From: Neolewinella aurantiaca
Lineage (GTDB): Bacteria > Bacteroidota > Bacteroidia > Chitinophagales > Saprospiraceae
Assembly (NCBI RefSeq): GCF_008014675.1
Contig: NZ_VOXD01000006.1
Location: 132,521-196,520 of the forward strand
Length of the DNA: 64,000 nt
Direction: 5' to 3'
Shown here: positions 1,660-63,869 of the stretch, piece after piece
Layout of the letters: the number at the start of each line of letters is the position of its first letter
How positions within the stretch are numbered: position 1 is the first letter of the stretch
Notes under the pieces: model-generated
Told to the model about the DNA's origin: nothing
Databases searched by the model: none
The model's input: only the letters and a program-made list of their open reading frames with translations
Program-made: the position numbers and the translations under genes

Positions 1660-1676
1660 GCACCTGCGCCCGCGCC
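1660..1676 (+). repeat. Dispersed 17-bp motif, copy 1
   Basis: GCACCTGCGCCCGCGCC, between the dnaB stop and the recA promoter. The upstream flank CTTT is shared with several other copies. Confidence 0.8.
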
Positions 1677-1733
1677 ACCGCGATCAGGTAACCTTATTAA
1701 CGACAAAAGTAAAGTTGCTGCTTACAGCATTGG

Positions 1734-3272
1734 CTAGAAAGGAATGTCCTCGTCCGTATTGTTCATCTTAGACGGGATGGTCGTTGAGCCATATGGCTGA
1801 CCAGCCTGGATCGCAGTATCTGGCAGCAAGTCGAAGTCGGGGTCATCGAGGTCGCTGAAGCGGGCGAAGTCGCTTTCGAAGGCCAGGCGAATATCTTTGG
1901 CTTCACCGTGGCGGTTTTTACCAACGATGACCGTTGCGGTTCCGCGCAGGGAGTTACCCTGTTCGTCTTCCTCGATACCGTAGTATTCGGGGCGGTAGAG
2001 GAACATTACCATGTCGGCATCTTGTTCGATGGATCCGGACTCCCTCAAATCGGAGAGTTGCGGTCGCTTATCCCCACCACGTGTTTCTACGGCACGCGAG
2101 AGCTGAGAGAGCGCGATCACCGGCACCTCCAGTTCTTTGGCCAGGCCTTTGAGGGCGCGGCTGATACCGGAAACTTCCTGTTCCCGGTTCATCCCTTTGT
2201 TGGATTCTCCGGAACCGGACATCAGCTGGAGGTAATCGATGATGACCATCGAGATGTCTTTCTCGAGTTTGAGGCGGCGACACTTCGCACGTAGCTCAAA
2301 GACGTTGATACCGGCGGTATCGTCGATGTAGATCGGTGCTTCGCCGATGCGGTTCATGGCGTCTACGAGGCGGGTCCACTCGTCGTCGTCGAACTTACCG
2401 TTACGCATTTTCTGTCCGTTCACTTCGGCGTCCTGACTGAAGATACGACCGGCCAGCTGGGCGGCACTCATCTCCAGGCTGAACAGGGCGACACCGCGCC
2501 CGTACTCGACGGCCGCGGAGCGGGCGAGGCTGAGGACGAAACTCGTTTTACCCATGGCCGGGCGGGCGGCGATGATGATGAGGTCGGAAGGCTGAAGGCC
2601 GGAGGTAAGGCGATCGAGTTCCGTGAAGCCAGTCGGCACACCGGTAAGGCCGTCCTCTTTATCGCGCAGCATCGTGAGTTGCTCCAGCAGTTGGTTGGCA
2701 AGCGTACCCATATCGGCCACCTGCTTACCCATGTTTCGTTCGGTGATTTCGAAGACGTAATTACCGGCTTTGTCGAGCAGATCGAGTACATCGGTACCGT
2801 CTTCGTAAGCGTCTTTGATGATTTCCGTACTGGTACGGATGAGTTCGCGCTGGATGAATTTTTCGGTTACAATCCGGGCGTGGTACTCGATGTTGGCCGA
2901 GCTGGTCACCTTACTCGTCAGTTGGGCGAGGTAGGCGGCACCGCCGATGGTTTCCAGTTCCCCGGCTTTTTTGAGGTCTTCCATGACCATCAAAAGATCG
3001 ATCGGCTGGCTGCGCTCAAACAAGCGGCGCATGCTGCGGTAGATCGACTGATGCGCAGGCTTGTAGAAGGAATCCGCTTCCAGGATGTCGAGCACCTTGG
3101 TCATCGCTTCTTTTTCAATCAGGATGGCAGACAATACCGCCTCCTCCAGGTCGGGCGCCTGGGGCGGAAGTTTACTGTACTCGGGCAGGTTCGCTTCCTG
3201 GAGCCGGGCGCGGTTGCTCCAGGTACTGGAGGTTCCGTTTGCTCGCCGATCTTGTTGTTTGTCTTTAGCCAT
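1734..3272 (-). CDS. dnaB: Replicative DNA helicase DnaB
   Basis: DnaB is the hexameric 5'-3' helicase that opens the replication fork. The 512-residue protein has the N-terminal helical domain (about residues 38-145, starting PPQAPDLEEAVLSAIL), a linker, and the RecA-like C-terminal domain with Walker A ARPAMGKTS at about 237-245, Walker B VIIDYLQLM, and the arginine-finger region near GKNRHGEAKD. The tail after about residue 470 is short and low in complexity. No intein is present. The ATG at 3272 sits 10 nt after a TACATTTG element. The leader upstream carries three DnaA-box-like TGTGGAAA sequences, which could link its expression to DnaA, though that is inference. A DciA-like helicase loader is encoded in the same window. 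Confidence 0.98.
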   Translation of the reverse strand: MAKDKQQDRRANGTSSTWSNRARLQEANLPEYSKLPPQAPDLEEAVLSAILIEKEAMTKVLDILEADSFYKPAHQSIYRSMRRLFERSQPIDLLMVMEDLKKAGELETIGGAAYLAQLTSKVTSSANIEYHARIVTEKFIQRELIRTSTEIIKDAYEDGTDVLDLLDKAGNYVFEITERNMGKQVADMGTLANQLLEQLTMLRDKEDGLTGVPTGFTELDRLTSGLQPSDLIIIAARPAMGKTSFVLSLARSAAVEYGRGVALFSLEMSAAQLAGRIFSQDAEVNGQKMRNGKFDDDEWTRLVDAMNRIGEAPIYIDDTAGINVFELRAKCRRLKLEKDISMVIIDYLQLMSGSGESNKGMNREQEVSGISRALKGLAKELEVPVIALSQLSRAVETRGGDKRPQLSDLRESGSIEQDADMVMFLYRPEYYGIEEDEQGNSLRGTATVIVGKNRHGEAKDIRLAFESDFARFSDLDDPDFDLLPDTAIQAGQPYGSTTIPSKMNNTDEDIPF

Positions 3273-3282
3273 ACTTCAAACA

Positions 3283-3290
3283 CAAATGTA
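3283..3290 (-). promoter_or_regulatory. dnaB -7 promoter element TACATTTG
   Basis: TACATTTG on the minus strand matches TAnnTTTG and ends 10 nt before the dnaB ATG, so the transcript would have almost no leader. No clean TTG was found at the expected -33 distance. The rest of the 372-nt gap to lgt (3273-3644) contains two copies of the dispersed motif in opposite orientation and TGTGGAAA-type boxes at 3334-3342, 3357-3365 and 3400-3408. Confidence 0.6.
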
Positions 3291-3418
3291 CGAAAATGGG
3301 ATTTAGGGTCAGCTATCTTTTCTCCACGCGAAATGTGGAAAGGGGTTGGAAAACGGGGTGGAAAACCTCCTTTTTTGCGTGGAGTAAATTGTTAAGTGCT
3401 GTGGAAAATGTTATTCAG

Positions 3419-3435
3419 GGCGCAGACGCAGGTGC
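3419..3435 (-). repeat. Dispersed 17-bp motif, copy 2
   Basis: GCACCTGCGTCTGCGCC on the minus strand, in the lgt-dnaB gap. It faces copy 3 in inverted orientation, 146 nt away. Confidence 0.75.
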
Positions 3436-3581
3436 AGTGGAAGTTAGGAAAGCGCTCTCATTCGGGGAGTGCAGGAACTTCACCGCCGGGTGAGTTCATC
3501 GGGCAGGGTAGGAGAGCGATTACGAGGATGAAACAGCGAACTGAATTATTCGGGGTGGGGAAGTCCTCGAAAACGATCTGT

Positions 3582-3598
3582 GCACCCGCGTTCGCGCC
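3582..3598 (+). repeat. Dispersed 17-bp motif, copy 3 (variant)
   Basis: GCACCCGCGTTCGCGCC; differs from the main form at the sixth base (C for T). It lies 46 nt beyond the lgt stop. Confidence 0.6.
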
Positions 3599-3644
3599 TG
3601 CTGAACCTGACTTTCGCCCTAAGCAAAGGATTCCAGGTTTCCGT

Positions 3645-4445
3645 TTACGCAAGTTTCCGTTTCCGGTTGCTCATGGCAATCATCACCGCCCCGGCCAGTA
3701 CGCACGGTACGCTGAGCCATTGCCCGGTAGTGAGGGTAGTGCCAAATCCTCCCTGATCGCTCTTGAAGTACTCCCAGATGAAGCGGAAGCCGAAGATGAG
3801 TACGAACCACAGGCCGGTCAGGAAGCCCGGTTTTTCACCAGCATCTTTTTTCCAGTACAGCCAGAACAGGATACCGAAAGTAAAAAGGTAGCTGAGCGAT
3901 TCGTAGATCTGCACCGGATGCCGCGGCACGTCGGCCAGGCTTTCACGGGCGGCATTCACAAATTTGAACGCCCACGGTTTATCGCTCGGCAAGCCCACGA
4001 TCTCAGAATTCATCAAGTTGCCGAAACGGATCATCGCTCCTACCAGCGCGATTGGCGCAGCAACTTTATCTGAAGTCCAGAAAAAAGATTTTTTACTTAC
4101 GAAGTAACTGAACAGAGCAATCGCGGTAACCACCCCGACAACGCCACCGTGCGACGCCAGGCCGCCTTCCCATATTTTGGGGATTTCGGACAAGTGCTGA
4201 CTGTAGTAATCCCATTGGTAAAAAACCACGTGCCCGAAGCGTGCGCCGAGTACCGTACCACCGATGAGAAAGTAAAACAGGTAATCCAGCCATTCCTCCG
4301 GAGCTCCTTCCCGGATAAACATTTTACGAACCAATTGGAAGCCGATCATAAATCCGGCGGCAAACATCAGGCCGTACCAACGGAGAGCGAAGCCGCCGAT
4401 ATTGAAAATTTCGGGGGATGCATCCCAGGTAATATAAGCGAGCAT
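3645..4445 (-). CDS. lgt: Prolipoprotein diacylglyceryl transferase Lgt
   Basis: Lgt moves diacylglycerol from phosphatidylglycerol to the lipobox cysteine of prolipoproteins, the first step of lipoprotein maturation in the inner membrane. The 266-residue protein has about seven hydrophobic segments. The family signature appears as RFGNLMNSEIVG (around residue 140), matching the Lgt consensus R-x-GN-x-x-N-x-E-x-x-G, and the essential HGG motif is present as SHGGVVGV just before. Several predicted lipoproteins in this window are potential substrates. The ATG at 4445 follows directly after a repeat array, which leaves almost no room for a conventional promoter, so its transcript may start within or beyond the array. 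Confident call. Confidence 0.97.
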   Translation of the reverse strand: MLAYITWDASPEIFNIGGFALRWYGLMFAAGFMIGFQLVRKMFIREGAPEEWLDYLFYFLIGGTVLGARFGHVVFYQWDYYSQHLSEIPKIWEGGLASHGGVVGVVTAIALFSYFVSKKSFFWTSDKVAAPIALVGAMIRFGNLMNSEIVGLPSDKPWAFKFVNAARESLADVPRHPVQIYESLSYLFTFGILFWLYWKKDAGEKPGFLTGLWFVLIFGFRFIWEYFKSDQGGFGTTLTTGQWLSVPCVLAGAVMIAMSNRKRKLA

Positions 4446-4446
4446 G

Positions 4447-4612
4447 ATTAGGAATTAGAAGCTAGGAATTAGGGAGCTAGAAGCTAGGAATTAGGAACTA
4501 GGGAACTAGAAGCTAGGAATTAGAAGCTAGGAATTAGAAACTAGGGAACTAGAAGCTAGGAACTAGAAGACTGGCCTTAATGAATGACGGGCTGGTTCCT
4601 AATTTCTAGTTC
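4447..4612. repeat. Short-unit repeat array with inverted partner arm (family A)
   Basis: From 4447 to about 4567 the sequence is built from degenerate repeats of GAATTAGAAGCTAG and GGAACTAG. After a core of about 28 nt (4568-4595) an inverted arm TTCCTAATTTCTAGTTC (4596-4612) follows, so the element can fold back on itself. It fills the entire space between the start of lgt and the stop of lysS. Two other elements in the window share this architecture with unrelated units (36291-36370 and 57386-57522). Confidence 0.85.
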
Positions 4613-8405: not shown

Positions 8406-8433
8406 CGGTCTGCGTTCAGGCGATCAGAACCAT

Positions 8434-8474
8434 GTAAGCGCCCATCAGACCTTTGCTGTCTGGTGGGCGCTTAC
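8434..8474 (+). terminator. Strong hairpin after the SDR gene
   Basis: A 17-bp stem (8434-8450 with 8458-8474, one wobble pair) and a 7-nt loop lie 29 nt after the stop codon. There is no T-tract, so it may act mainly as an mRNA 3' end. Its right arm runs into copy 4 of the dispersed motif. Confidence 0.6.
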
Positions 8475-8482
8475 GCAGGTAC
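8466..8482 (-). repeat. Dispersed 17-bp motif, copy 4 (variant)
   Basis: GTACCTGCGTAAGCGCC on the minus strand. It overlaps the right arm of the preceding hairpin, so part of the match may be coincidence. Confidence 0.45.
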
Positions 8483-9947: not shown

Positions 9948-9964
9948 GCACCTGCGTGCGCGCC
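9948..9964 (+). repeat. Dispersed 17-bp motif, copy 5
   Basis: GCACCTGCGTGCGCGCC, ending 7 nt before the ATG of the SpoIIAA-like gene, so it lies in that gene's leader or core promoter region. Confidence 0.75.
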
Positions 9965-11485: not shown

Positions 11486-11876
11486 AATAGGATGGTTTAG
11501 CGGCTGCGGGAGAATTGCTACCCTGTTTGTGAACGAGTGGGCTTCCTGCAGAAAGGGACTGTTCTCAATTCGGGCGAGGCACCTCTCCGGCACCCAGGTT
11601 TAAGGATTTCAATTACGCAATGCTTGATTGCACAGCTAAATTGGTCCCTGACCGCCGGCCTGCAAATCTTTTTCTATAAGCTTCTTGTAAAACAAGATGA
11701 ACGCCCGTCCTGGCATCCGATGTGGCAAGGGTGAAACAATTAAACCGCACCAAAACGTCTGATTTTCAGGCGCGGCCGCAGGTGCCGGGTGATGGATAAA
11801 AAAGCAAAGTTGTTGATCGCTGAACCATTATTCCCGGTTTCGCGTCTTAACTTACAGACCTTCAATTATCAATGTC
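11486..11876. other. Divergent intergenic region, DUF4407/apaG
   Basis: 391 nt between two divergent genes. It holds one copy of the dispersed motif (11769-11785). I found no supported gene or clear TAnnTTTG box for either gene. Confidence 0.6.
11769..11785 (-). repeat. Dispersed 17-bp motif, copy 6
   Basis: GCACCTGCGGCCGCGCC on the minus strand; the same central triplet occurs in copy 8. Confidence 0.8.
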
Positions 11877-12362: not shown

Positions 12363-12380
12363 GCATCCTGCGCGCGCGCC
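12363..12380 (+). repeat. Dispersed motif, copy 7 (18-bp form)
   Basis: GCATCCTGCGCGCGCGCC, an 18-bp form with an extra T after GCA; copies at 24219 and 47507 share this form. It lies 35 nt before the ABC exporter start. Confidence 0.65.
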
Positions 12381-18550: not shown

Positions 18551-18567
18551 GGCGCGGCCGCAGGTGC
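18551..18567 (-). repeat. Dispersed 17-bp motif, copy 8
   Basis: GCACCTGCGGCCGCGCC on the minus strand, upstream of the tandem units and facing the opposite way from copies 9 and 10. Confidence 0.8.
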
Positions 18568-18745: not shown

Positions 18746-18885
18746 GCACATGAACACAAGGATTAAGCGCTGACGGCACACCTCTCGACATCCCGAGCAA
18801 GAAGACACCTTGAGCCTGGCAAGCTATCCTCCCTGACTACGAATCACAGACAGGTCCAAGAGCCCCTGCCTACCTACGGCTCATT

Positions 18886-18902
18886 GCACCTGCGCCCGCG
18901 CC
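18886..18902 (+). repeat. Dispersed 17-bp motif, copy 9
   Basis: GCACCTGCGCCCGCGCC, within tandem unit 1, ending 9 nt before parS site 2. Confidence 0.85.
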
Positions 18903-18911
18903 CTCATGAAT

Positions 18912-18925
18912 GTTCCACGTGGAAC
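18912..18925. promoter_or_regulatory. parS site 2
   Basis: GTTCCACGTGGAAC, exactly 193 bp from site 1. The flanking dyad is less extended than at site 1. Confidence 0.8.
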
Positions 18926-19078
18926 AACGAGACGTGGCACACGTGAACACTAGGATTAAGCGCTGACGGCACACGCCTCGATGTCCCGAGCAAGAAGACA
19001 CCTTAAGCCTGGCAAGCTATCCTCCCTGACTACGAATCACAGACAGGTCCAAGAGACCCTGCCTACCTCCGGCTCATT

Positions 19079-19095
19079 GCACCTGCGCCCGCGCC
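19079..19095 (+). repeat. Dispersed 17-bp motif, copy 10
   Basis: GCACCTGCGCCCGCGCC, within tandem unit 2, ending 9 nt before parS site 3. Confidence 0.85.
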
Positions 19096-19104
19096 CTCAT
19101 GATT

Positions 19105-19118
19105 GTTCCACGTGGAAC
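19105..19118. promoter_or_regulatory. parS site 3
   Basis: GTTCCACGTGGAAC, exactly 193 bp from site 2 and 48 bp from site 4. Confidence 0.8.
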
Positions 19119-19142
19119 AATAGCGCCAAAGCTCAAAAGAAA

Positions 19143-24218: not shown

Positions 24219-24236
24219 GCATCCTGCGTGCGCGCC
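24219..24236 (+). repeat. Dispersed motif, copy 11 (18-bp form)
   Basis: GCATCCTGCGTGCGCGCC, between thrA and ybeY. Confidence 0.7.
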
Positions 24237-28664: not shown

Positions 28665-28986
28665 AACAAAGAAAGCTTACTGAAACACAAAATGGAAACA
28701 CGTAGTAAATAGGTCTCCAAAATACGTAAAAGATTACAAGTGTAGTTTGGTTGTGTCTTAACGTCGGAGCAGATGTTAAAATTACAGCGCTTTTTCGTTG
28801 GCCCTTAGTCAGTTTGGGGCGAGGTCGCAGGTGCAAAGCAAGTTTTGGCAATGGCCCCATATGCATCTATCGCTCCCGAGCTATTTGGGCGCAAACCAGA
28901 TTATCGCGATTGCTCCTCCCCAGCGCAGCGGTGTGGGGAGGCTGGGAGGGGGGGGGGCTGAGCGACAATCTGGTTTACTCCCCGAG
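28665..28986. other. Intergenic region with nested inverted repeats
   Basis: 322 nt between DUF4175 and the Nramp gene. Besides one dispersed-motif copy it contains AAACCAGATT (28893-28902) inverted at 28967-28976, and inside it CCTCCCCA (28915-28922) inverted at 28934-28941. A run of ten G (28948-28957) lies between. It could be the 3' end of the Nramp transcript. No gene is supported. Confidence 0.6.
28818..28834 (-). repeat. Dispersed 17-bp motif, copy 12 (variant)
   Basis: GCACCTGCGACCTCGCC on the minus strand, preceded by GCTTT as in copies 14 and 15. Confidence 0.6.
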
Positions 28987-30222
28987 TTACCTGGGCCGCC
29001 GCACCATCAGCCAAAGAGAAATCAGGAGCACAATGCCATAAGTCCCCGTCAGTACATCAGCCCATAAGCCGTCGTGACTGGGTGAAATTTTCCCGATTAG
29101 CAAATCAAAGTTCTTATAGGCCAAAAAGCCGGCCACCAGCACTCCTGCAATATTTTGCCACCAGGTATTTACCTGCTCACCAAGCAGGGAGCGGTCGTTG
29201 GCCATCACCAGAACAATTGCGGCGATGAAGGGAAGCAGGAGTCCGTTTGCCACCTGCGCGGCCAGTATTACCGAAATGATGTTCAGTTCGAGGCAGGCAA
29301 CCAGGAGACCAACCAGAAGCACGCCGCCCCAAATGCCCCGGAACCAAAGCGAAGTATTGGCAAAATCCGTTTCCTTGCGCCCGAGCAGTTCCCGGCCAGC
29401 CAGTGCGGCAGCCAGAGGAGCCGTTACCGCAGAGCTGAACCCAGCGGCAAAAAGACCGAAGCCAAGGACAACTTTGCTCAGTCCGCCCAGGCTTGCATCC
29501 AGCGTGCGCGCCAAATCGGCAAAACTGCTGAACGAAACTGCTACGCTCCCCACCAGAATAATACTGATTGTGATGATGCCTCCCACCAAAAAAGATCCCG
29601 CAAGCCCCATCCGCATTTCGCCCAAAGTCTGTCCTTTACTGAGCCCTGCCGCCAGAAAAAAATTATACGGCACAATGGTAGTGCCCACCAACCCGATGAT
29701 GGTAGCCGAAGTTACCGTTTCGCTGCCCGTAAGGGGCCCATCTCCAACGAGGAGTAACGAGGCCGAAACCACAAACACGACTCCCATCAGCACCACAATA
29801 GCAGAAAGCGCCCGCGCAATAATCTTCGTGTCCCCTTTCCACAAAACCGCAAAAGCCGCCGCCCCCAGCAGTAACACCCACAAACGGTGAACCGGTACCA
29901 ATAACTGAGCTCCACTCAGGGCCCCGAGTAAGTTCCCCGCCTGATAAGCCATACACCCCAGGAGTACCGCCCCGAAACAAATAATGGCCAACCATCTCCC
30001 CCGGTGGCCAAGTACCTGACCCAAGGATTGGCCGCTTACCAGCGTAATCCGGGCCACCATTTCCATGAGTAACAGTCCCGCTACCGCAGCGAGTAGTAAG
30101 TAAGGTGTGTAATACCAGCCCCCCTGACTCCCAGCCTTTGCCGCAGTTGTAACCGTGCCCGGTCCAATAAAGGCGGCAGCAATGAGGGACCAAACAAGTG
30201 CGCGGGAGTAAGAAGCTTTCAT
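28987..30222 (-). CDS. Nramp-family transporter with altered metal-site motifs
   Basis: A 411-residue protein with eleven or so hydrophobic helices and the overall pattern of Nramp divalent-metal transporters. In canonical members helix 1 carries D-P-G-N and helix 6 carries M-P-H; these supply the metal ligands. Here helix 1 reads G20-P21-G22-T23 (FIGPGTVTTA) and helix 6 reads V184-P185-Y186-N187 (TTIVPYNFF). So the helix breaks are kept but the Asp, Asn and Met ligands are gone. It probably does not handle Mn2+/Fe2+ in the standard way; a different ion or substrate is possible. The gene stands alone. It is not the usual MntH. Confidence 0.82.
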   Translation of the reverse strand: MKASYSRALVWSLIAAAFIGPGTVTTAAKAGSQGGWYYTPYLLLAAVAGLLLMEMVARITLVSGQSLGQVLGHRGRWLAIICFGAVLLGCMAYQAGNLLGALSGAQLLVPVHRLWVLLLGAAAFAVLWKGDTKIIARALSAIVVLMGVVFVVSASLLLVGDGPLTGSETVTSATIIGLVGTTIVPYNFFLAAGLSKGQTLGEMRMGLAGSFLVGGIITISIILVGSVAVSFSSFADLARTLDASLGGLSKVVLGFGLFAAGFSSAVTAPLAAALAGRELLGRKETDFANTSLWFRGIWGGVLLVGLLVACLELNIISVILAAQVANGLLLPFIAAIVLVMANDRSLLGEQVNTWWQNIAGVLVAGFLAYKNFDLLIGKISPSHDGLWADVLTGTYGIVLLISLWLMVRRPR

Positions 30223-31860: not shown

Positions 31861-31877
31861 GGCGCGACCGCGGGTGC
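31861..31877 (-). repeat. Dispersed 17-bp motif, copy 13 (variant)
   Basis: GCACCCGCGGTCGCGCC on the minus strand, lying between two DnaA boxes in the candidate origin. Confidence 0.55.
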
Positions 31878-43867: not shown

Positions 43868-44322
43868 ATGCTATTGGAGACTAAGTCTCTAAGCGGCCGC
43901 AAATATACTGCCGTTGTTTCCCTTGCGCAAGTAGTAAGGCGATATTTTTTTAGTTAGTAGCTATATTCCGGGCGTTTAGGGGGCTGACGCCCCCGGAATT
44001 GTTGGCTTAAGCAGGAAAGCGGGGCGAGTCGGGCCAGCAGATTAAGGACTGAAAATCAGGACGAAACGCGGACGCCGGTTGCGCTGGGGTGGGGGAGATG
44101 GAGTGCGGGTATCAGTTTGAGTACATTTTTCCCGGAGGCTTTGCCTCACAACCCACTTTTGCACCTGCGTTTGCGCCCTTAAAGCATCTGTTCGTAACTT
44201 GTAGGTAGTTACCGGGGCGGTTGGGAGAACTACAACTCCCACGGTTAATGCCTTGTTAATGGAGCCAACGAGCATAAGAACGCGGGGTTTTACTTCCTTC
44301 TTACTCCTTTATTCTTCACCTC
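43868..44322. other. 455-nt intergenic region
   Basis: Between the tRNA and the histidine kinase gene, divergent. It contains a nested hairpin (ATTCCGGG at 43965-43972 with CCCGGAAT at 43992-43999; GGGGGC/GCCCCC inside) and one dispersed-motif copy. No gene is supported. Confidence 0.5.
44161..44177 (+). repeat. Dispersed 17-bp motif, copy 14
   Basis: GCACCTGCGTTTGCGCC, 145 nt upstream of the histidine kinase start, preceded by CTTTT. Confidence 0.8.
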
Positions 44323-46520: not shown

Positions 46521-48326
46521 ATGATACCTTTGCCTGCTTCCCTATCTTCACCGGTAAAAAACAACCCTTTGCGTACACTCTTCTGCCTTTGCTTTTTCAC
46601 TTTTTCTTTTCTTTCCGCTCAAGAGCTTCAGTACGATGCACCACTGGGTGGACCTTTGCTCGTAACGGGCACTTTCGGAGAACTGCGTGGTAACCATTTT
46701 CATGCAGGCCTGGATTTTCGGGCCAGCGTTAACACGCCGGTGTATGCGGTAGCCGACGGGTACGTCAGCCGGATACTTGTAAGCCCTGGTGGCTATGGTC
46801 AGGCAATTTACGTCGATCATCCCGACGGGCATCGCAGCGTTTATGGTCACCTGGAAACCCTCGCGCCGGAATTGCTGGATACCGTTCGGGCGCGGCAGTT
46901 TGCCGAAGAAGAATTCCGGCAGGATCTGCGGTTCGGGCCGGCAGTTTTTCCGGTAACCAGGGGGCAGCAGATCGGAGGAGTGGGGAACCGCGGGCACAGC
47001 TTTGGTCCGCATCTTCATTTCGAGATGCGCGAACAGGCGGGCGACGTTGCGCTCAATCCGCTGGCCTTCGGGTTCAGCATCCCGGACACACGGGCTCCGG
47101 CGATCCGAAAACTGAGGGTGTACGAACTCGATGATCGCGGACTGGAAACGGGAAGCCGAACGATTACGCCCCAGACGTTGCGCAGCGGTAACTACCAGGT
47201 AGACGATACGCTGGTGGTAACCAGCCGCCGCATCGGGCTGGCGCTGAAAAGCTACGACCGCCAGAACGCGATGCCGAACTGGAACGGAATTTTCGGAGGC
47301 AACCTTTATGCAGACTCCACTCTGATTTTCGAATTTCGCTTCGCGCGCATCCCGTTCGAAGAAACGGAGTACCTGAACGCCCTGACCGATTACGCCGACT
47401 GGATGGAGAACGAGAGTTGGTTTCACCGCTTCTGGGCCTTGTCTCCGCAGCAGTTCCGCGCTCCGATGCCGAAGGATACGGCCGGGCCTTTTGCCTTTCT
47501 CAATCAGGCGCGGCCGCAGGATGCAAAGCAGGTTGAAAGCCCCGGCTCTTACGACGGGAGCCTGGTGTTGCAGCCCGAAAAGCCGATCAATCTGCGACTA
47601 CAGACGGTCGACTTTGCGGGCAATACTTCGGAGCTCGGTCTGGTGGTGGTATATCGCCCAACCTCCACTGCACCTGCTGCCGAGCCCCATCAGTATTTTC
47701 TTCCTGCCGGTGAGGCAAGCGTTATCGACAACAACGATATGCGGCTGGAATTGAGCGCCGATGCTCTCTACCGCGATTGTTTTTTTCGTTACGCCCGCCT
47801 GCCCGATCGCTCGGCGAATCACCTGAGTGATGTTCATCAGGTTCACGACTACCGCACGCCCCTCCATGGCTCGGGGCGCCTGCACCTGCGGCCCGTTGGC
47901 CGCATAGCCGACGACCTGCGCGACCACGTCTTTCTGGGAAGCTGCGACGATGCCGGCCACCTGAGCAGCAACGGAGGAGATTGGACCGAAGACGGACGCA
48001 TGGCTGCCAATATATCAACCTTCGGTGATTACGGCCTTTTTCTGGATACCGTTCCGCCAACCGTAGAGGTAAACTACTTCAGTACCGACCTGCGCCGTGC
48101 TACTGGTTTCAGTATCGTTATGGACGACAACGTCTCCGGAGGCCGTATGAACTTCCGGGGAACCATAGACGGGAAGTGGGCACTGCTGGAGCACGACGGT
48201 AAAAGCGGTAAACTTATCTACTCCTTCGCCAACGGTGACCCCGGCCCCGGCGAGCACCTCTTCGAGCTGGAAGTGACGGATGCGCGGGGCAACGGTACCC
48301 AGTGGCAGCGCCGGTTCCGGCGCTGA
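46521..48326 (+). CDS. Secreted M23-family peptidoglycan peptidase
   Basis: A 601-residue exported protein. After a signal peptide (hydrophobic core LFCLCFFTFSFLSA, cleavage near SAQ34) comes a LytM domain with zinc ligands His61 and Asp65 in HAGLDF and His164/His166 in GPHLHFEM. A long C-terminal region (about residues 185-600) of beta-rich sequence follows, with an Ig-like end (LFELEVTDARGNGTQWQRRF). The catalytic domain cuts peptide cross-links in peptidoglycan or activates amidases. The large second half is not a domain I recognise. Two motif-family copies lie inside the coding region (47507 and 47670). Confidence 0.9.
   Translation: MIPLPASLSSPVKNNPLRTLFCLCFFTFSFLSAQELQYDAPLGGPLLVTGTFGELRGNHFHAGLDFRASVNTPVYAVADGYVSRILVSPGGYGQAIYVDHPDGHRSVYGHLETLAPELLDTVRARQFAEEEFRQDLRFGPAVFPVTRGQQIGGVGNRGHSFGPHLHFEMREQAGDVALNPLAFGFSIPDTRAPAIRKLRVYELDDRGLETGSRTITPQTLRSGNYQVDDTLVVTSRRIGLALKSYDRQNAMPNWNGIFGGNLYADSTLIFEFRFARIPFEETEYLNALTDYADWMENESWFHRFWALSPQQFRAPMPKDTAGPFAFLNQARPQDAKQVESPGSYDGSLVLQPEKPINLRLQTVDFAGNTSELGLVVVYRPTSTAPAAEPHQYFLPAGEASVIDNNDMRLELSADALYRDCFFRYARLPDRSANHLSDVHQVHDYRTPLHGSGRLHLRPVGRIADDLRDHVFLGSCDDAGHLSSNGGDWTEDGRMAANISTFGDYGLFLDTVPPTVEVNYFSTDLRRATGFSIVMDDNVSGGRMNFRGTIDGKWALLEHDGKSGKLIYSFANGDPGPGEHLFELEVTDARGNGTQWQRRFRR
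47507..47524 (-). repeat. Dispersed motif, copy 15 (18-bp form, in a gene)
   Basis: GCATCCTGCGGCCGCGCC on the minus strand, within the M23 peptidase coding region where it encodes ARPQDA on the plus strand. Confidence 0.65.
47670..47686 (+). repeat. Sister motif GCACCTGCTGCCGAGCC, copy 1
   Basis: Inside the M23 peptidase coding region (APAAEP). The 20-nt string GCACCTGCTGCCGAGCCCCA is identical at 58181-58200 in an unrelated gene. Confidence 0.65.
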
Positions 48327-52646: not shown

Positions 52647-53642
52647 GTGGCGGGATTGAGCGCGCAGCGAGCATCCCTGTTACTTTGCCTCTTAACCCTA
52701 CTCTGTACCTGCGGCCGCGCCCCTGAATTTTCTCCTCCCAAAACGACTTTTTACCACTGGGAAACCAGCCTGGCACCCGACAGTACTGCACGTAGTTTAC
52801 TGACGGAACACAATTGCGATCGCCTCTACGCAAAGGCTTTTGATGTTAGCTGGGCGAACGGCCAGCCCGAACCCACCGCACTAATTCGGATGACGGATAC
52901 GGTGGGGTTGCCGCAGCTGGTTCCCGTCGTTTTTATTACCAACGAGGTCTTTCTCCGGCAGCCGGCTCACAAGCTGGAAGCGCTGGCCGAAGACATAGTT
53001 GGGCTTACGGAGGAACTCTTCGGTACCGACTTCCCCGAGCTGCAAATTGATTGCGATTGGACGGCGCGGACGCAGGTGCCATATTTCGATTTTTTAAGAG
53101 CAGTGTACGCCCGTCTGGAACACCGCTCCCTGACCTGCACCATCCGTTTGCACCAATACCGTGACCGTGACACCCAGGGCGTTCCGCCATTGAACCGCGC
53201 AACGCTGATGGCCTACAACGTCGGCAACCTCAACGCCTGGGAAACGGAAAACTCCATCGTTGATACCAATATCCTGAAAACCTACCTCTCCGGTACGGAG
53301 CGCTACCCCATCAACCTCGACCTGGCCATCGCCGCCTACGACTGGGCGGCCGTTTACCGCCGCGATGAACTCACCTACCTCATCAATGAACCCGACATGC
53401 AGGAACTGGGAGATACCTCCCGCTTTGTGGCCTACGTGCCAACGGGAGCAAGCCAGCGCTGGCGGGTCAGGCAATCGACCTACCTCGACGGGATTTACCT
53501 CTACGAAGGAGACCTGCTCCGCCACGAAGTGGCTTTACCCGGAGCGGTAAACGCTCAGGTAGCGTTGCTGTCGCGCTACATCCCCGGCTTCGCCGGGCAG
53601 CGGGCGATGGTTTACCGGTTGGGGAGTCGGTTATGGGAGTAG
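52647..53642 (+). CDS. Predicted lipoprotein, TIM-barrel-like
   Basis: Starting from a GTG at 52647 (or a TTG at 52656) the protein opens with a good lipoprotein signal (SAQRASLLLCLLTLLCTCGR), about 331 residues long. A longer frame from an ATG at 52554 would put 31 charged residues before the signal, so I reject that start. The mature part contains LQIDCDWTARTQ followed by YFDFLRAVY, MAYNVGN and YLDGIYLYEGD, which resembles the TIM-barrel glycosidase-like DUF3142 family; the acidic residues D-x-D could be in an active site. I am not sure of the family. Two motif-family copies lie inside it (52705 and 53063). Confidence 0.7.
   Translation: MAGLSAQRASLLLCLLTLLCTCGRAPEFSPPKTTFYHWETSLAPDSTARSLLTEHNCDRLYAKAFDVSWANGQPEPTALIRMTDTVGLPQLVPVVFITNEVFLRQPAHKLEALAEDIVGLTEELFGTDFPELQIDCDWTARTQVPYFDFLRAVYARLEHRSLTCTIRLHQYRDRDTQGVPPLNRATLMAYNVGNLNAWETENSIVDTNILKTYLSGTERYPINLDLAIAAYDWAAVYRRDELTYLINEPDMQELGDTSRFVAYVPTGASQRWRVRQSTYLDGIYLYEGDLLRHEVALPGAVNAQVALLSRYIPGFAGQRAMVYRLGSRLWE
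52705..52721 (+). repeat. Dispersed 17-bp motif, copy 16 (variant, in a gene)
   Basis: GTACCTGCGGCCGCGCC, encoding the residues around the lipobox Cys of the lipoprotein (CTCGRA). Confidence 0.55.
53063..53079 (-). repeat. Dispersed 17-bp motif, copy 17 (in a gene)
   Basis: GCACCTGCGTCCGCGCC on the minus strand, in the same lipoprotein gene, encoding TARTQV on the plus strand. Confidence 0.65.
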
Positions 53643-57522: not shown

Positions 57523-59094
57523 AGCCTTTCGTTCAAAAACGAGAGTTTCGCCCAGGAAGGTTTCGTAGTAGCCGAAGAAGTGAGCGTAGGCGATTCGCTC
57601 GGGGAACCAATTACGGGGCCGGAAAGCTTTGAGCAGCCGGGCTTTCTCGTCGGTGCCGGAAAGAAGCGACTGCATCCGGGCACATTCTTTTTCGCTCTTG
57701 CAATTGTAGACGCCGTCGCAGCATTCAGGGAGGCCAAAGGGGGTGGTCATGCTTTTCCAGTAACGACTGTAGTGGGTTTCGTGGATCACAGCGTAATCCC
57801 AGTTGCCGTTCATGAACCAGTCGGTCTTTCGGAGGCCTTCCAGTTTTACGTAACCCGAGACACCAATTTTTGCGTCTTCCGGTAGTTCGTTGTTAACGAA
57901 TTCGCGCATCTCGTAGCGGGTATCGAACCAGTGATTACTCTGGCCAACGATACCAAACAGAACCGTATAGATGACAACGGCCAGCGATAGCCAGCTGTGT
58001 TTACGCAGCTCATGCAGTCCGTAAGCGCACAGGATGCAAACAGCCGGCATGAAAACATTGACCCGCCGGATGAAGGCTGTATCTACAGACCAGCGGACGA
58101 TAAATTCGCTAACGATCCAGCCCGTCAGGTAGAGCAGGGTCCAGTGACGGTTGGTCCAGGCTTTTTTCTCAACACGCTTTGCACCTGCTGCCGAGCCCCA
58201 AAGACGCATCAGCCCGAACAAAGCAAAACCGAATGCAGGCAGCCCCACACCCGCAAGAACACCCGCGGGATAGACAATGAGGTTGTCACGGAAATGATCT
58301 TCGACCGGTACACCCTCGCGGTTGAGTTTGCTTAGGCCTTTGAAGGTCGACTGTATGTTGTCCCAAGACCAGCCGTACCAGGAAATACCCACAAATGCAA
58401 GTACCAGGCCCACCCCCACCGGAACGTACCACCACGGAATTGCCCGCCGCATAAAGGCCAGGTGAAGCAGGTAAAGCCCTCCCCAAGCCAACGGAAGAAC
58501 GTCGAACTTGAAGGCAACCGCCCCCGCCGAACCAAGGGCAAGCAGCGCCAGGCCGGAGAAAGACGAAGATTTATGACCCAGCCTCAGTGCCCCGAGCAGC
58601 GCCAGATAACACCAGAAAACGTAGCCGGCAGCTGGCAGGCAATAATGACTGATGGTCGCGTTGGCATCGCAGGCCGCCATCAGCAAAGCCGCCACGCCAG
58701 CGTAGGGAGGCGAAAGACCTCCCGCCCTTGCGAGTAGCCAAACGGACAAGATGAGTAATAAGGAAAACAACGTCGAAAGTTTACGGCCAAGCAGCACGAA
58801 TTCTTCCCAGGACGGCGGGTTATCCTGCAGGGCGTACCAACCGTAAGCAGTAGTTGCGATGAGGTGGCCGTAGCCGCGCACATTCCAGGGTGAATCGTTG
58901 TAGTCGCCTACTTTTTCGCCGTCGTACAGGTCGTTGTAGCGGTGTGTGGCGGCGTGGACGTGTTGCCCTTCGTCGGGCTCAAAAGTCACCCAGTTGTCCT
59001 TTATGTCCTGGGTGAACCAGCCAGGCACGCGCAACGCGAGACCCAGCAGAAGGGCCAGCGGCAACAACCAACGGGCATCAAATGGCAGTTTCAC
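57505..59094 (-). CDS. Membrane glycosyltransferase, GT-C (ArnT/PMT-like)
   Basis: A 529-residue protein with ten or more hydrophobic helices. The first periplasmic loop contains FEPDEGQHVHAATHRYNDL, with the D-E motif that binds the catalytic metal in GT-C enzymes using polyprenyl-phosphate sugars (GT39/83 type). The C-terminal part is soluble, with a conserved DTRYEMREFVNNELPEDAKIGV segment. It probably adds sugars to lipids, proteins or polysaccharide outside the inner membrane; the substrate is unknown. The last five residues (GSRES) and the stop come from a repeat element. It begins with the base directly after the stop of the small gene upstream, so they form an operon. Confidence 0.85.
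   Translation of the reverse strand: MKLPFDARWLLPLALLLGLALRVPGWFTQDIKDNWVTFEPDEGQHVHAATHRYNDLYDGEKVGDYNDSPWNVRGYGHLIATTAYGWYALQDNPPSWEEFVLLGRKLSTLFSLLLILSVWLLARAGGLSPPYAGVAALLMAACDANATISHYCLPAAGYVFWCYLALLGALRLGHKSSSFSGLALLALGSAGAVAFKFDVLPLAWGGLYLLHLAFMRRAIPWWYVPVGVGLVLAFVGISWYGWSWDNIQSTFKGLSKLNREGVPVEDHFRDNLIVYPAGVLAGVGLPAFGFALFGLMRLWGSAAGAKRVEKKAWTNRHWTLLYLTGWIVSEFIVRWSVDTAFIRRVNVFMPAVCILCAYGLHELRKHSWLSLAVVIYTVLFGIVGQSNHWFDTRYEMREFVNNELPEDAKIGVSGYVKLEGLRKTDWFMNGNWDYAVIHETHYSRYWKSMTTPFGLPECCDGVYNCKSEKECARMQSLLSGTDEKARLLKAFRPRNWFPERIAYAHFFGYYETFLGETLVFERKAGSRES
58181..58197 (+). repeat. Sister motif GCACCTGCTGCCGAGCC, copy 2
   Basis: In the coding region of the glycosyltransferase (encoding GSAAGA on the minus strand), preceded by CTTT as in the main motif. 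Confidence 0.65.
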
Positions 59095-59312: not shown

Positions 59313-59329
59313 GGCTCGGCAGCAGGTGC
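59313..59329 (-). repeat. Sister motif GCACCTGCTGCCGAGCC, copy 3
   Basis: Minus strand, in the divergent region between the glycosyltransferase operon and recF. Confidence 0.65.
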
Positions 59330-59418
59330 AGAGCGGGTTGTTGGGCCGGGGAATTACCGGCCAACTAACTCCTGACGACTGTACTGCAGTGACGCACTAT
59401 TACCTACCTTCGCGGACA

Positions 59419-60525: not shown

Positions 60526-60546
60526 GACCTCTTCGTTGGTTCAAAA

Positions 60547-60580: not shown

Positions 60581-60644
60581 AAACTCAAATATAGTGTTGT
60601 TCATCGTGTTGCCTGTTCAGCAGGCGTCAGTTATACTTAGCTGT

Positions 60645-61328
60645 TCAATTGTTCAATTCTTTAAGAAGCATCTCGGCAACGAGCTCAGAAGAAGCGGGGT
60701 TTTGTCCTGTTATCAGTAACCCATCCTGTACGGCGTAAGAAGCCCAGTCGTCTCCTTTGCTGAAGGAGCCTCCGTTTTCTTGCAGCATGTCCTCAACCAG
60801 GAAAGGAACGACGTCGGTCAACTGTACCGCGTCCTCTTCGGTGTTGCTAAAACCTGTCACCTTTTTGCCTGATACCAGAGGCTTGCCATCGGCGCCTTTG
60901 GTGTGGCGGAAAACAGCGGGGGCGTGGCATACGGCGCTAACCGGCTTACCACTCTCGTAGAAGTTTTCGATGAGAGCGACAGAGTCTTTGTCTTCGGCGA
61001 GATCCCAAAGCGGGCCATGACCACCGGGGTAGAATACGGCGTCGAAATCTGCTGCGTTCACAGTAGATAGTTTGAGCGTATTGGCCAGAACTTCCTGCGT
61101 TGCTTTGTCATCATAGAAGCGGACGGTTGCCGGGGTCTGGTTATTCGGGTCTTCGCTGCTGGGATCGATAGGGGGCTGACCTCCTTTAGGCGAAGCGAGC
61201 GTAATTTCGACTCCTTTATCTTTCAGGAAATAGTAAGGGGCTGCAAATTCTTCGACCCAGAAACCTGTTTTTTTACCGGTGTCACCAAGTTGATCGTGGC
61301 TGGTCAGTACGAATAATACCTTTTTCAT
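60645..61328 (-). CDS. DJ-1/PfpI (HchA-like) family protein
   Basis: A 227-residue protein of the class I glutamine-amidotransferase-like fold. The nucleophile elbow is SAVCHAPA with the catalytic Cys, PGGHGPLWDLAED carries the conserved Glu-region, and TGQNPASSELVAEM ends the fold. It belongs to the type with N-terminal SHDQLGDTGKKTGFW, seen in Hsp31-like chaperones and glyoxalases III. It may remove glyoxal or repair glycated proteins; the precise role is not certain. A Crp/Fnr-type regulator gene lies upstream, 194 nt away on the same strand, and might control it. Confidence 0.92.
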   Translation of the reverse strand: MKKVLFVLTSHDQLGDTGKKTGFWVEEFAAPYYFLKDKGVEITLASPKGGQPPIDPSSEDPNNQTPATVRFYDDKATQEVLANTLKLSTVNAADFDAVFYPGGHGPLWDLAEDKDSVALIENFYESGKPVSAVCHAPAVFRHTKGADGKPLVSGKKVTGFSNTEEDAVQLTDVVPFLVEDMLQENGGSFSKGDDWASYAVQDGLLITGQNPASSELVAEMLLKELNN

Positions 61329-61522
61329 TTTTATAAAATTTTATGGTTCTGTAAAAGCGAAGAATGCTGTGATCGGATATTAAATAAATGGTTTCCAGCC
61401 TCGGGAAGAGACTGAATCGATCAACAGAAAACTCCGTCGGATAATTGTGCAGGCAAAATTAGGGGGGGCATCGGTCAAAAAAATTGACCTATGATAACAA
61501 GTTTGTTTTTCTGTACTGGATG

Positions 61523-62092
61523 TTATTGCCGGGCCAGTTTCTTTCTGATCCGACTGAGGCTTTCGGTCGTGATACCGAGGTAAGAGGCGATGTGATAATT
61601 TTTCACGATGCGTTCGATTTCAGGATAATCCGCCAGAAAAGCGAGGTACCTCTCTTCCGCAGAATCGGAGAGGATGGAGAGAACGCGCTTTTGCAGCATT
61701 GAGAATCCACCTTCTACTTTTTTACGCATAAAGGTTTCCAGCGCGGGAATGTCACGGCACAGGGTTTCGAGCCGCGGGCGTGACATTCGGTAAAGGGTGG
61801 CATCCTGAAGGCACTCAATGGTCATGATTGCTTTACGAGAATAGAAATAAGCGGTGTAGTCGCTGACCCACCAGTCTTTTATCCCGAACTGAAGGGTGTA
61901 TTCCTTATCTTTTTCGTCGATGAAGAAAGTTCTCAGGCAACCGCTTTGCACGTAGTATTGGTACTTGACGGTGTCGCCCAAATCCAGAATTATATCTCCT
62001 TTTTTATACTTGACTTCTTTGAACTCGGCAGTAATCAGGTCAAGTTCGGCGGGGGAGATAGCTATACCTTTAAATATTTCGGCGGGGGACAT
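61523..62092 (-). CDS. Crp/Fnr-family transcriptional regulator
   Basis: A 189-residue protein with an N-terminal cyclic-nucleotide-type beta-roll (YKKGDIILDLGDTVKYQYYVQSGCLRTFF) and a C-terminal winged helix (YHIASYLGITTESLSRIRKKLAR). The nucleotide-binding Arg/Ser pair of true CRP is not evident (KDWWVSDYTAYFYSRKAIM), so another ligand or none is likely, as in many Bacteroidota members. Targets are unknown; the DJ-1-like gene downstream is a candidate. Confidence 0.9.
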   Translation of the reverse strand: MSPAEIFKGIAISPAELDLITAEFKEVKYKKGDIILDLGDTVKYQYYVQSGCLRTFFIDEKDKEYTLQFGIKDWWVSDYTAYFYSRKAIMTIECLQDATLYRMSRPRLETLCRDIPALETFMRKKVEGGFSMLQKRVLSILSDSAEERYLAFLADYPEIERIVKNYHIASYLGITTESLSRIRKKLARQ

Positions 62093-62309
62093 CAGAGAGG
62101 TTAGTTCCGGGGGGAATTATAATTCAGAGGGCTTGGCGGAAGAATGCAGGAATCCGGGATCCACTTTTCCTCCCTATTGAATCTCAATAAGCGGGGGGCA
62201 CAACATTTCGATGTGTCCTTGTGGAGGAAAGCACAAGATAATATGTTTTTTGTGCCGGAGAAATTTATTGGCCGCATGATCACTCAAACCTCCGTACCTT
62301 GCCAACAGA

Positions 62310-62615
62310 ATGTACAAAAAGCCCCCACCCAAGAACGACCCCACGCCTCTGAAGGAGGCCTTCATGAAGCTGCTCCGCAATAAGCGCAACGAGCCTGGTT
62401 ACTTCAAAGCAAGGACGAAGTTGGTGTGGGAGAAGTTCTTTGGCAAAAATGTAGCGGACAACACCCGGGACCTAATGGTCCGTAATAAAAAACTCTACGT
62501 GTACGTCAACAATGCGCCATTGCGCAACCAGCTGATGATGCACCGGGAAGGTATCCTGAAACGACTGAACGAGGAGTTTGGGGAGGACTACCTGGAGGAG
62601 GTGGTTATTAAGTAA
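62310..62615 (+). CDS. DUF721 / DciA-like protein
   Basis: A 101-residue protein starting MYKKPPPKNDPTPLKEAF. The helix-strand pattern (LKEAFMKLLRNKRN, VWEKFFGKNVADNTRDL, KLYVYVNNAPLRNQLMMHR, LEEVVIK) is that of DUF721, the KH-like domain of DciA. DciA is the ancestral loader of the DnaB helicase, found in bacteria without DnaC or DnaI. That would fit with dnaB in the same window, though the Bacteroidota proteins are short and the role here is inferred. Start at 62310 lies after a TACCTTGC sequence that may be a -7 element. Confidence 0.85.
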   Translation: MYKKPPPKNDPTPLKEAFMKLLRNKRNEPGYFKARTKLVWEKFFGKNVADNTRDLMVRNKKLYVYVNNAPLRNQLMMHREGILKRLNEEFGEDYLEEVVIK

Positions 62616-62747
62616 AGCGAAAAGACTGCTCGGTAAGTGCAAGAGTGAGGCATGATGGTCTTGAGGCTCAATCGAGCTAAGACCTGAGCCGGCAGAAGCT
62701 GTTCATCCGAAAAGGATGAATTGCGAAATCAACCCTCCGGAACAAGA

Positions 62748-63869
62748 CTACCAGCGCCTGGCCGGTAACGTCCCCAGTAGCCCCAGCATCAGGTACCACG
62801 GAGCCAGCAGTGCATCGAATACAGCGACCACCCAGGCAGATTCGTACTGTGCCTTGTAGCCTTTTTTTGCACCTGCGTTAGCGCCCTGTAATCCCGATCT
62901 TCGAAAGCCCCTTAATACCAGAAGAAACCGGAGGGCATACACGAACAGGGCCAACCACCTCAGAGGGGTAAACAGTAAGAAAAGGCCCAGCAGAAAAAAT
63001 AAGCCGTGGCTGAGCGCCACCAGCCCCAGCAATACCTGATGCACCGGCCGGTACCGAAAACCGACCGATTGGTGCCGCATGCGCTGCCTGAGAAAAACAG
63101 GCCAACTGCCAGACAAACGAGACATGGTTCGCGCATGCATACGGGTGACACACACCGTGGATGGCCCCAGGGCGTTGTTGCCGATCAGGAGGTCATCGTC
63201 GCCCCCGGGAAGGTCGGTGTGGGCGGCGAAGCCGCCGGAGCGCTGGAAGAAGGATTTTTGATACGCCAGGTTACGGCCTACGCCCATGTAAGGGAGACCA
63301 AAGCGCGCGAAGCTAAGGTACTTGAGCGCAACGTACATCGCCTCGAAGCGCTGAAACCGGTCGATGATTTTCCACCCGTTGTATGCATATTCGCCAACCC
63401 CAAGAACTACCTCTGCGCCCTGGCGCAGGGGGCGCGTCATGAGGATAAGCCAATTGTGGCTACGGGTGAGGCAGTCGGCATCCGTAAGCAGGATGTGCTC
63501 GTGCCGCGCATTGTTGATGCCAAAGGCAAGCGCGTCTTTTTTGCCGGGCCGGGTTGGGCCGGGCTGAAGGAGGCGAACCCGACCATCCGTTTCATCGACG
63601 AGTTGGCGGACGATGGTAGCAGACTTGTCCGTAGAATTGTCATCTACCGCTACAATTTCGAAATCGCCGGGGTATTCCTGTTTGAGAATGCTGACGAGAC
63701 AGTTGTCAATCATCTCTTCCTCGTTACGGAAGCAGACGATGACAGATACGGGAGGAAACGGACCTGTCTCTGCTGGCTGAACCTGACTCTGTTTTGGAAA
63801 CGCGTAGTGGCTGAACATTCCCCAGAAAAAAAACTGTGCAGCGGCAGCAAAAAGAAAGACGGTGAGCAT
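62748..63869 (-). CDS. Glycosyltransferase family 2, membrane-bound
   Basis: A 373-residue enzyme with an N-terminal membrane helix (MLTVFLFAAAAQFFFW), a GT-A domain and three or four C-terminal hydrophobic helices. The GT2 signature is seen as VSVIVCFRNEEEMI, VDDNSTDKS, then LLTDADC (D-x-D for the metal) and PGGDDDLLI, with the R-x-R-W-like QRMRHQ. It would elongate or attach sugars from nucleotide donors at the inner face of the membrane. The start at 63869 is preferred over one at 63896 because it overlaps the stop of the upstream gene (TGATG). One dispersed-motif copy lies in the C-terminal part. Confidence 0.9.
   Translation of the reverse strand: MLTVFLFAAAAQFFFWGMFSHYAFPKQSQVQPAETGPFPPVSVIVCFRNEEEMIDNCLVSILKQEYPGDFEIVAVDDNSTDKSATIVRQLVDETDGRVRLLQPGPTRPGKKDALAFGINNARHEHILLTDADCLTRSHNWLILMTRPLRQGAEVVLGVGEYAYNGWKIIDRFQRFEAMYVALKYLSFARFGLPYMGVGRNLAYQKSFFQRSGGFAAHTDLPGGDDDLLIGNNALGPSTVCVTRMHARTMSRLSGSWPVFLRQRMRHQSVGFRYRPVHQVLLGLVALSHGLFFLLGLFLLFTPLRWLALFVYALRFLLVLRGFRRSGLQGANAGAKKGYKAQYESAWVVAVFDALLAPWYLMLGLLGTLPARRW
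62869..62885 (+). repeat. Dispersed 17-bp motif, copy 18 (in a gene)
   Basis: GCACCTGCGTTAGCGCC, encoding GANAGA in the glycosyltransferase on the minus strand; preceded by a run of T (TTTTTTT). Confidence 0.7.

Follow-up and report, generated by a model that had tools for sequence, protein, structure and literature searches.

A genus-restricted dispersed word in Neolewinella and Lewinella genomes, possibly a self-DNA recognition sequence resembling DNA uptake sequences

What is a short, nearly identical word doing when it recurs along a bacterial chromosome, mostly between genes and in both orientations? The question is raised by a 64-kb window of Neolewinella aurantiaca DNA (contig NZ_VOXD01000006.1 of assembly GCF_008014675.1, positions 132,521 to 196,520; "the window" denotes this whole stretch of 64,000 nucleotides). 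An original prediction, made from the letters of the window, had noticed a dispersed 17-bp motif there and proposed an architectural protein-binding site, a sequence resembling those of DNA uptake or a small mobile repeat. We found that the motif is part of a longer word of about 40 bp, which is restricted to the genus and spelled in species dialects. Among the three proposals, the uptake-like sequence fits best, the small mobile repeat fits poorly, and the architectural site remains a rival. We tentatively suggest that the word might be a genus self-DNA recognition sequence working like the DNA uptake sequences (DUS) of Neisseriaceae and the uptake signal sequences (USS) of Pasteurellaceae. 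We found no published description of the word in Lewinella or Saprospiria in the open-licence PubMed Central (PMC) literature.

All 18 sites listed for the window were confirmed, 15 within one mismatch of the 17-mer and three (12363, 24219 and 47507) as forms with one inserted base, and a 19th copy at 29495 has to be added to that list. With up to two mismatches, the window contains 19 matches, compared with 0.62 in its shuffled versions. The genome (6.0 Mb in 104 contigs) carries 880 exact copies, whereas a reversed control pattern has none, so the count is not at the level of chance. Forward and reverse copies number 436 and 444 without overall strand bias, matching the mixed orientation seen in the window. 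Neither is the word lost from all close relatives: exact counts in 20 congeners from Lewinella and Neolewinella range from 0 (G001) to 1176 (G006, N. lacunae). The 39 genomes from other genera of the same family or order have no copies except for three in G021 and one in G049, and in a phylum-wide sample of 395 genomes searched with the pattern GCACCYGCGNNNGCGCC, 35 of the 393 genomes outside the genus match, with at most five copies each. The word is restricted to the genus, and counts elsewhere are at chance. A plasmid collection gave no match to a 38-base consensus.

Species with low counts in part use other spellings of the word. We identified these dialects by k-mer enrichment in genome stretches, with G009, G012 and G015 (Lewinella sp. 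W8) outside the sampling. G001 has the dialect TTTACCTGCGCTCCGCCGCC, with 235 copies of ACCTGCGCTCCGNCGCC and none of the main word. G019 favours GCACCCGCG (517 GCACCC against 181 GCACCT), which is also preferred in G013 (157 against 59) and G016 (146 against 59), and the preferred spelling of G014 is GCACCTGCGGCAGCGCC. The most divergent word was found in G011, where 80 kb contain TGCTACTTTG 20 times (0.2 expected); 12 of the 20 copies are intergenic (background 12%), both strands are used, and TTAG and A-rich DNA often follow. One copy in a signal peptide of this species, MFIFLFLLCYFVSPN, matches the LCTCVRAQ type of the main dialect codon by codon when lined up by eye. In G004, GCTCCCGCGNNNCCGCC has eight exact copies in 80 kb and a form shorter by one base has three, with 0.0 expected for each. 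No clearly enriched word emerged from 120–140 kb of G007 (N. xylanilytica) and G017, and G007 carries 57 copies of the G001 word genome-wide. Species-specific microrepeats unrelated to the word were also observed, namely CTACCGC, ACTACCCG and the TATTGTCGCGG unit (loci L108, L109 and L111 in G019; L114, L115 and L120 in G014; L137, L138 and L140 in G006).

The 17-bp motif is real but extends beyond its first-described length. The word consists of a pyrimidine/AACC tract, TGCACCT and then GCG-N4-CGC-C. In 133 intergenic copies from 859 kb, information spans approximately positions -20 to +23, about 40 bp, with a mean of 0.00 bits farther out. The intergenic consensus has pyrimidines at -16/-15, A at -11/-10, C at -8 and -4 and T at -1, followed by the core GCACCTGCG, NNN with a C-rich third place, GCGCC and a weak A. 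CTTT or TTTT, said to precede many copies, stands just upstream of only 5 of the 18 sites, though T occupies position -1 in 89% of the intergenic copies. In 88 copies within coding regions the leading preferences are unchanged (AA at -11/-10, C at both -8 and -4, T at -1), over a faint 0.03-bit background farther out. Among 95 single mismatches in 17-mer copies, 91 fall at positions 5, 12, 16, 1 and 0, and none at positions 3, 4, 6, 7, 8, 13 or 14.

Positions 6–8 (GCG) are complementary to positions 13–15 (CGC) around a four-base loop, thereby forming a short inverted repeat of 3–4 bp, which the original prediction had not anticipated. In a second spelling, GCACCTGCTGCCGAGCC, positions 8 and 13 change together from G-C to T-A, and neither changes alone; it has 12 exact copies in the 859 kb and none in the G002 (N. 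agarilytica DSM 24740) and G006 stretches. We selected sites by the upstream half alone, obtaining 234 candidates, 184 standard and 50 non-standard, and as a control placed foreign downstream DNA behind the same left arms in 500 trials. Complementary arms at a loop of 3–7 are kept by 32 of the 50 non-standard sites (control mean 4.2, maximum 11), either with changed arms (GCT/AGC in 13, three others once each) or with other loop lengths. The GCT/AGC spelling may represent a single allele that has expanded, and its 12 copies therefore do not count as independent; setting aside the 13 sites with these arms leaves 19 of 37 that keep the pairing. G002 (18 of 40; control mean 3.25, maximum 10) and G006 (6 of 7; 0.77, maximum 4) agree, G014 (3 of 7) and G019 (4 of 8) lie above the control means and not above the maxima, and G013, G016 and G020, with one each, are at control level. 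In G011 the arms are TTTG/CAAA, and 10 of 20 copies pair at a loop of 3–7 against 0.023 expected per site, a figure that the A-rich tail may inflate. Variable spacing alone could also reflect a bipartite protein site; the paired arm changes favour a folded strand or strict symmetry.

The arms changing jointly, or pairing at other loop lengths, would also suit a self mark that is read inside the cell, for example a Chi-like stop met by a nuclease of end resection or of defence, or a mini hairpin folded from a single strand and recognised by a HUH-type or recombination enzyme. Chi sites are short (5–8 bp) and are read by RecBCD or AddAB, whereas the word is far longer, with its information spread over about 40 bp, and no enzyme has been linked to it. 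We regard such an in-cell mark as unlikely, and return to it with the phages.

The distribution of the word was analyzed with exact and one-mismatch copies, insertion form included, in 859 kb of host DNA, which contains 142 exact, 108 one-mismatch and 45 two-mismatch copies. The excess of exact over one-mismatch copies is mild, and at three mismatches the counts are control-like (145 for the 17-mer, 163 for the reversed pattern). Between genes lie 148 of the 250 copies against 15% expected, and 102 are within genes on both strands; in the window, 14 of the 18 listed copies lie between genes predicted by our codon-score script (not an annotation), and intergenic DNA makes up 15.7% of it. The intergenic preference first noted for the window was thus borne out, but the statement that most longer gaps contain a copy was too strong: 8 of 17 window gaps of at least 200 bp have one, as do 63 of 163 gaps of at least 250 bp in the 859 kb. 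The word is spaced more evenly than at random (coefficient of variation 0.70 against 0.86 ± 0.06), with none of 500 simulations as low when close pairs were merged and the simulations kept the division into genes and gaps. Even spacing is compatible with the in-cell mark as well.

Tandem, divergent and convergent gaps contain 1.13, 1.19 and 0.93 words per kb, respectively. Since the three densities are similar, the word is not promoter-linked, and we rejected a promoter. A transcription terminator was likewise rejected because no T run follows the word, the gap classes are similar in density, and Rfam gave only a tRNA in the window. The word might instead be a site at which a genus-specific protein with an architectural or global regulatory role binds, organising the chromosome or tuning transcription. 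The intergenic location of 148 of the 250 copies, the positions kept at gene junctions and a moderate orientation toward the nearest gene (94 of 145 intergenic copies, three of the 148 at contig ends being omitted) would accord with such a site. Nevertheless, we consider it rather unlikely: convergent gaps, which lack promoters, are nearly as rich in words, the 102 copies inside genes occupy both strands, counts extend from 0 to more than 1000 within one genus, the loop length varies, and the consensus is sharper than usual for regulators, following an argument in the portion of PMC1626085 used here.

Inside genes, the 88 coding 17-mer copies use five of the six frames (GAxAGA, ARxQVQ, APAxAP, CTCxRAQ and HLRPR). 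Sense copies concentrate near the beginning of genes (the first tenth holds 21 of 48) and encode LCTCVRAQ-like ends of signal peptides; 15 of the 20 sense copies in frame 1 begin at most 90 bases from the predicted start. The 54 antisense copies are spread out. A signal-peptide motif acting at the protein level was rejected because antisense and intergenic copies carry the same DNA word, for which signal peptides are therefore merely a permissive place.

Pairs of words less than 400 bp apart are divergent in 26 of 32 cases in G000 and 8 of 9 in G002, with starts 62–369 bp apart; in G002, seven of the eight divergent pairs have starts 76–85 bp apart. The smaller sets of G014 (2 of 4) and G006 (1 of 2) have no such preference. 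Repetitive extragenic palindromic sequences (REP) and their doublet hairpins (REPIN), with their tyrosine transposase RAYT, are species-specific, dispersed and mainly intergenic, form inverted doublets and have a short inverted repeat, a GTAG-type head and a hairpin. The divergent doublets of G000 and G002 and the short inverted repeat might therefore be read as signs of a REP/REPIN-like or miniature inverted-repeat transposable element (MITE)-like repeat that a Y1 (RAYT) or another transposase mobilises, with solo words as remains of inverted doublets. One doublet in G002 does enclose a GTAG-type repeat: a composite of about 118 bp (L127:6329-6446, contig C20) has divergent words around a GTAG...CTAC REPIN-like double hairpin, and it recurs elsewhere in G010, a Lewinella metagenome-assembled genome (L144, L149 and L157). 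A mobile repeat is nonetheless distinctly improbable. Intergenic copies have no common flank beyond the word, the interiors of 37 divergent doublets lack mutual resemblance at an E value of 1e-4, and coding copies share the preferences of the word. Y1 transposases (Y1_Tnp) number one to seven in 20 of the genomes and zero in G018, which is 95% complete and has 675 words.

Comparison of sites between species also argues against mobility. For three sister pairs of species (median gene identity 81%, 86% and 79%), we counted syntenic gaps, leaving out those shorter than 25 bp or longer than 3 kb as well as genes of which less than 30% was located, and scored a gap as shared when each species has at least one word. 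All eight word-bearing gaps are occupied in both species, 73 are occupied in neither and none is one-sided, so sites stay at the same junctions. These gaps are consistent with an origin of the word by substitution rather than insertion. Six window sites (3419, 3582, 9948, 11769, 12363 and 18551) are matched at the same place and orientation in G008, another Lewinella metagenome-assembled genome. In 18 cross-species site pairs, the NNN differs at 24 of 54 positions and the fixed bases at 14 of 254, six of the 14 at position 5; some pairs were found by requiring the word in both species, and the agreement of fixed bases is biased upward. In a site-by-site comparison of G002 with G010, the counterpart of the pair member at G002 45923 is degenerate in G010, as is 25202 in G002. 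Turnover is seen at wider distance, with a word within 1.5 kb of the DUF4407 gene at four of eight loci.

The word is not confined to chromosomes. A scan of viral contigs with TGCACCTGCGNCCGCGCCC gave 32 stretches. Several of them are closely related, and two of this related group carry tailed-phage genes for terminase, head protease, tape measure and tail fibres. The terminase matches 51 phage records, none of which reaches 60% identity; 43 records are named for hosts in Bacteroidota, and the top-ranked matches are Microcystis phages at 28% identity. From the word alone we infer that these phages infect Lewinella; a comparison of seven phage proteins with 3.1 Mb of bacterial DNA gave no match. 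In an uncultured tailed phage family (L282, L283, L272, L267 and relatives), word positions are common to stretches about 96% identical. A transposon with the word as terminal repeats, considered for phage word pairs about 4 kb apart, was rejected because each phage site has its own flanks within homologous phage DNA. The other viral stretches include some that resemble signal-peptide-bearing host DNA and some of high GC that probably match by chance, as assessed by eye.

A mark read inside the cell would spare or recombine word-bearing DNA, so that chromosome and phages would both keep the word, and tailed phages do carry it. In the 22.2 kb read of one 38.7-kb phage contig, there are four words in 14.4 kb and two in 7.8 kb, corresponding to at least 0.16 and at most about 0.28 words per kb unless the remaining 16.5 kb is richer, and 13 phage stretches have 0.10 to 0.40, compared with 0.29 in the host. 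These densities are biased upward because the stretches were picked for holding the word. Moreover, work cited in the accessible part of PMC7371117 has uptake words accumulating in Pasteurellaceae prophages, and hence phage copies cannot decide between an uptake word and an in-cell mark.

Several observations weigh against an uptake word. With 250 copies in 859 kb, its density of 0.29 per kb is below the approximately one per kb of USS and DUS, and gaps are not clearly enriched in two-mismatch copies, of which they contain 9 of 45. In the two farther comparisons, with G013 and G016, one word of G020 is unmatched. An insertion test on coding copies gave 10 ungapped alignments of 19, from 14 of 66 queries, and is a weak test. 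USS and DUS are not known to contain an inverted repeat whose arms can change. We found no report of natural transformation in Lewinella in the open-licence PMC literature. ComEC is present in all 21 genomes, but a search with PF00437, which did not extend to other pilus families, found no full-length PilB/PilT/GspE-type ATPase in any of them. The matches cover at most profile positions 109–222 of 370. In 11 genomes they attain the curated cut-off (24.9 bits) with a margin of no more than 0.6 bits; the frames involved are about 950 residues long and presumably represent another ATPase family. Both known uptake-word families, Neisseriaceae and Pasteurellaceae, use type IV pili according to the text consulted from PMC7811141. 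Furthermore, DUF5689, which forms part of a protein that Riemerella anatipestifer needs for transformation, is absent from 20 of 21 genomes; in that bacterium ComEC, DprA, ComF and RecA are essential together with four proteins unlike known competence machinery (PMC8459023, in part). Riemerella-type machinery was accordingly rejected. The one genome with DUF5689 is G011, the species with the most divergent word, where a triple-domain frame lies at L255-L257 (contig C115).

Weighing these points, we still tentatively favour self-DNA recognition, probably for uptake, by a word that would be new and pilus-independent. A cell-surface DNA-binding protein, not a type IV pilin, would prefer DNA with the dialect of the species, and cells would import dialect-bearing fragments and recombine them into the chromosome. 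By biased gene conversion, better copies of the word might spread and decayed copies be repaired, and this drive would keep hundreds of near-identical words in permissive places such as gaps, signal peptides and Ala/Pro linkers. A change of the receptor could let the spelling shift in concert. The mini inverted repeat may help the strands to melt or kink, or may be recognised in the form of a folded strand.

Possibly, then, this is a self-DNA recognition system of an undescribed kind in a branch of the phylum without type IV pili, in which the upstream sequence and the mini inverted repeat, with arms and loop changeable and pairing kept, would serve as a species badge on chromosomes and some phages, its spelling rewritten genome-wide as species diverge. 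Abundant uptake words have been described in two families, both pilus-using, in the section of PMC7811141 cited above, and Bacteroidota would add a third, independent case. If so, one could ask whether drive is always behind such words, what a pilus-free receptor is, and by what route a new spelling comes to occupy a thousand sites. The dialect series, together with the phage copies, constitutes a natural experiment, and some carriers are named culture-collection strains (N. agarilytica DSM 24740, N. lacunae KCTC 42187 and N. xylanilytica DSM 29526).

The copies in the window are listed in the table, including three identical second-spelling words (47670, 58181 and 59313) with two differences from the main word. 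Some copies lie in or near other repeats. A long, nearly perfect hairpin at 8420-8482 (GTAAGCGCCCACCAGAC / GTCTGATGGGCGCTTAC, by eye) has the word at 8466 as one of its arms. At 18841-19130 there is a local direct repeat with a period of about 190 bp, each copy containing the word and then the palindrome TGTTCCACGTGGAACA; the matching gap in G008 is far shorter. Between lgt and lysS, a microrepeat of AGCTAGGAATTAG-like units occupies 4446-4575, and stretches like it match many positions in G008.

Table. Copies of the word and of its variant forms in the 64-kb window
Feature	Position	Strand	Remark
Word, exact	1660..1676	+	G008 comparison not possible
Word, exact	3419..3435	-	Left member of divergent pair with 3582; G008 also has such a pair beside lgt
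Word, 1 mismatch (GCACCC)	3582..3598	+	Right member of divergent pair with 3419
Word, 1 mismatch	8466..8482	-	G008 comparison not possible
Word, exact	9948..9964	+	G008 copy at same place, different NNN
Word, exact	11769..11785	-	G008 copy at same junction
Insertion form GCATCCTGCG	12363..12380	+	G008 has insertion form at same place
Word, exact	18551..18567	-	G008 copy at same place
Word, exact	18886..18902	+	In local direct repeat with 19079; no G008 counterpart
Word, exact	19079..19095	+	Second copy of local direct repeat; no G008 counterpart
Insertion form	24219..24236	+	
Word, 1 mismatch	28818..28834	-	
Insertion form, 1 mismatch	29495..29512	+	Antisense within Nramp gene; absent from the original list
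Word, 1 mismatch	31861..31877	-	
Word, exact	44161..44177	+	
Insertion form	47507..47524	-	Antisense within M23 peptidase gene
Second spelling GCACCTGCTGCCGAGCC	47670..47686	+	Arms GCT/AGC replace GCG/CGC
Word, 1 mismatch	52705..52721	+	Sense within predicted gene (CLLTLLCTCGRAP)
Word, exact	53063..53079	-	Antisense within same predicted gene as 52705 copy
Second spelling GCACCTGCTGCCGAGCC	58181..58197	+	GCT/AGC arms
Second spelling GCACCTGCTGCCGAGCC	59313..59329	-	GCT/AGC arms
Word, exact	62869..62885	+	Antisense within predicted glycosyltransferase gene

How does the word compare with known systems? It resembles REP/REPIN in being species-specific, dispersed and mainly intergenic, with inverted doublets and a short inverted repeat, but its head is TGCACCT and not GTAG, no fixed element boundary is seen, abundance has no link to the count of Y1 transposases, and positions are stable. 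Unlike Chi, it is not short. Riemerella columbina, another member of Bacteroidota and the sister of R. anatipestifer, also prefers its own DNA, whereas the candidates listed in the available part of that report are only A/T-rich k-mers (PMC7965970), and DUF5689 is nearly absent from Lewinella.

Traits common to USS and DUS, as compiled in the excerpt of PMC1626085, are about one copy per kb, no orientation bias, spacing more regular than random, some close opposite pairs, a non-coding preference, occurrence in relatives and a large surplus of exact over one-mismatch copies; the word has a lower density and a mild exact-copy excess, and shares the remaining ones. Like the USS of Pasteurellaceae, it has a core with weaker flanks, regular spacing and a non-coding preference (PMC1626085), together with biases to one orientation and to gene ends, as given in the relevant part of PMC2346458. 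The sequence and the phylum are unrelated, however, and the Lewinella dialects diverge far more (G011 against G000) than the two subclade dialects of USS (PMC1626085). With the DUS of Neisseriaceae it shares hundreds to thousands of copies, dialects and inverted pairs in gaps (PMC3630211, in the passages used), as well as permissive places and conservation of sites across species (PMC2397512, likewise in part). It differs from DUS in coming from another phylum without a full-length type IV pilus ATPase, in its greater length, mini inverted repeat and lower density, and in divergent pairs that are not tight stem-loops. Because no such ATPase was found and because uptake, receptor and drive are what we infer, we class the word as uptake-word-like and not as a member of either known family. 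In genome count, evenness of spacing, strand symmetry, dialects, use of coding frames and inverted pairs, the word matches the published hallmarks of USS and DUS, and for this reason the uptake hypothesis fits best.

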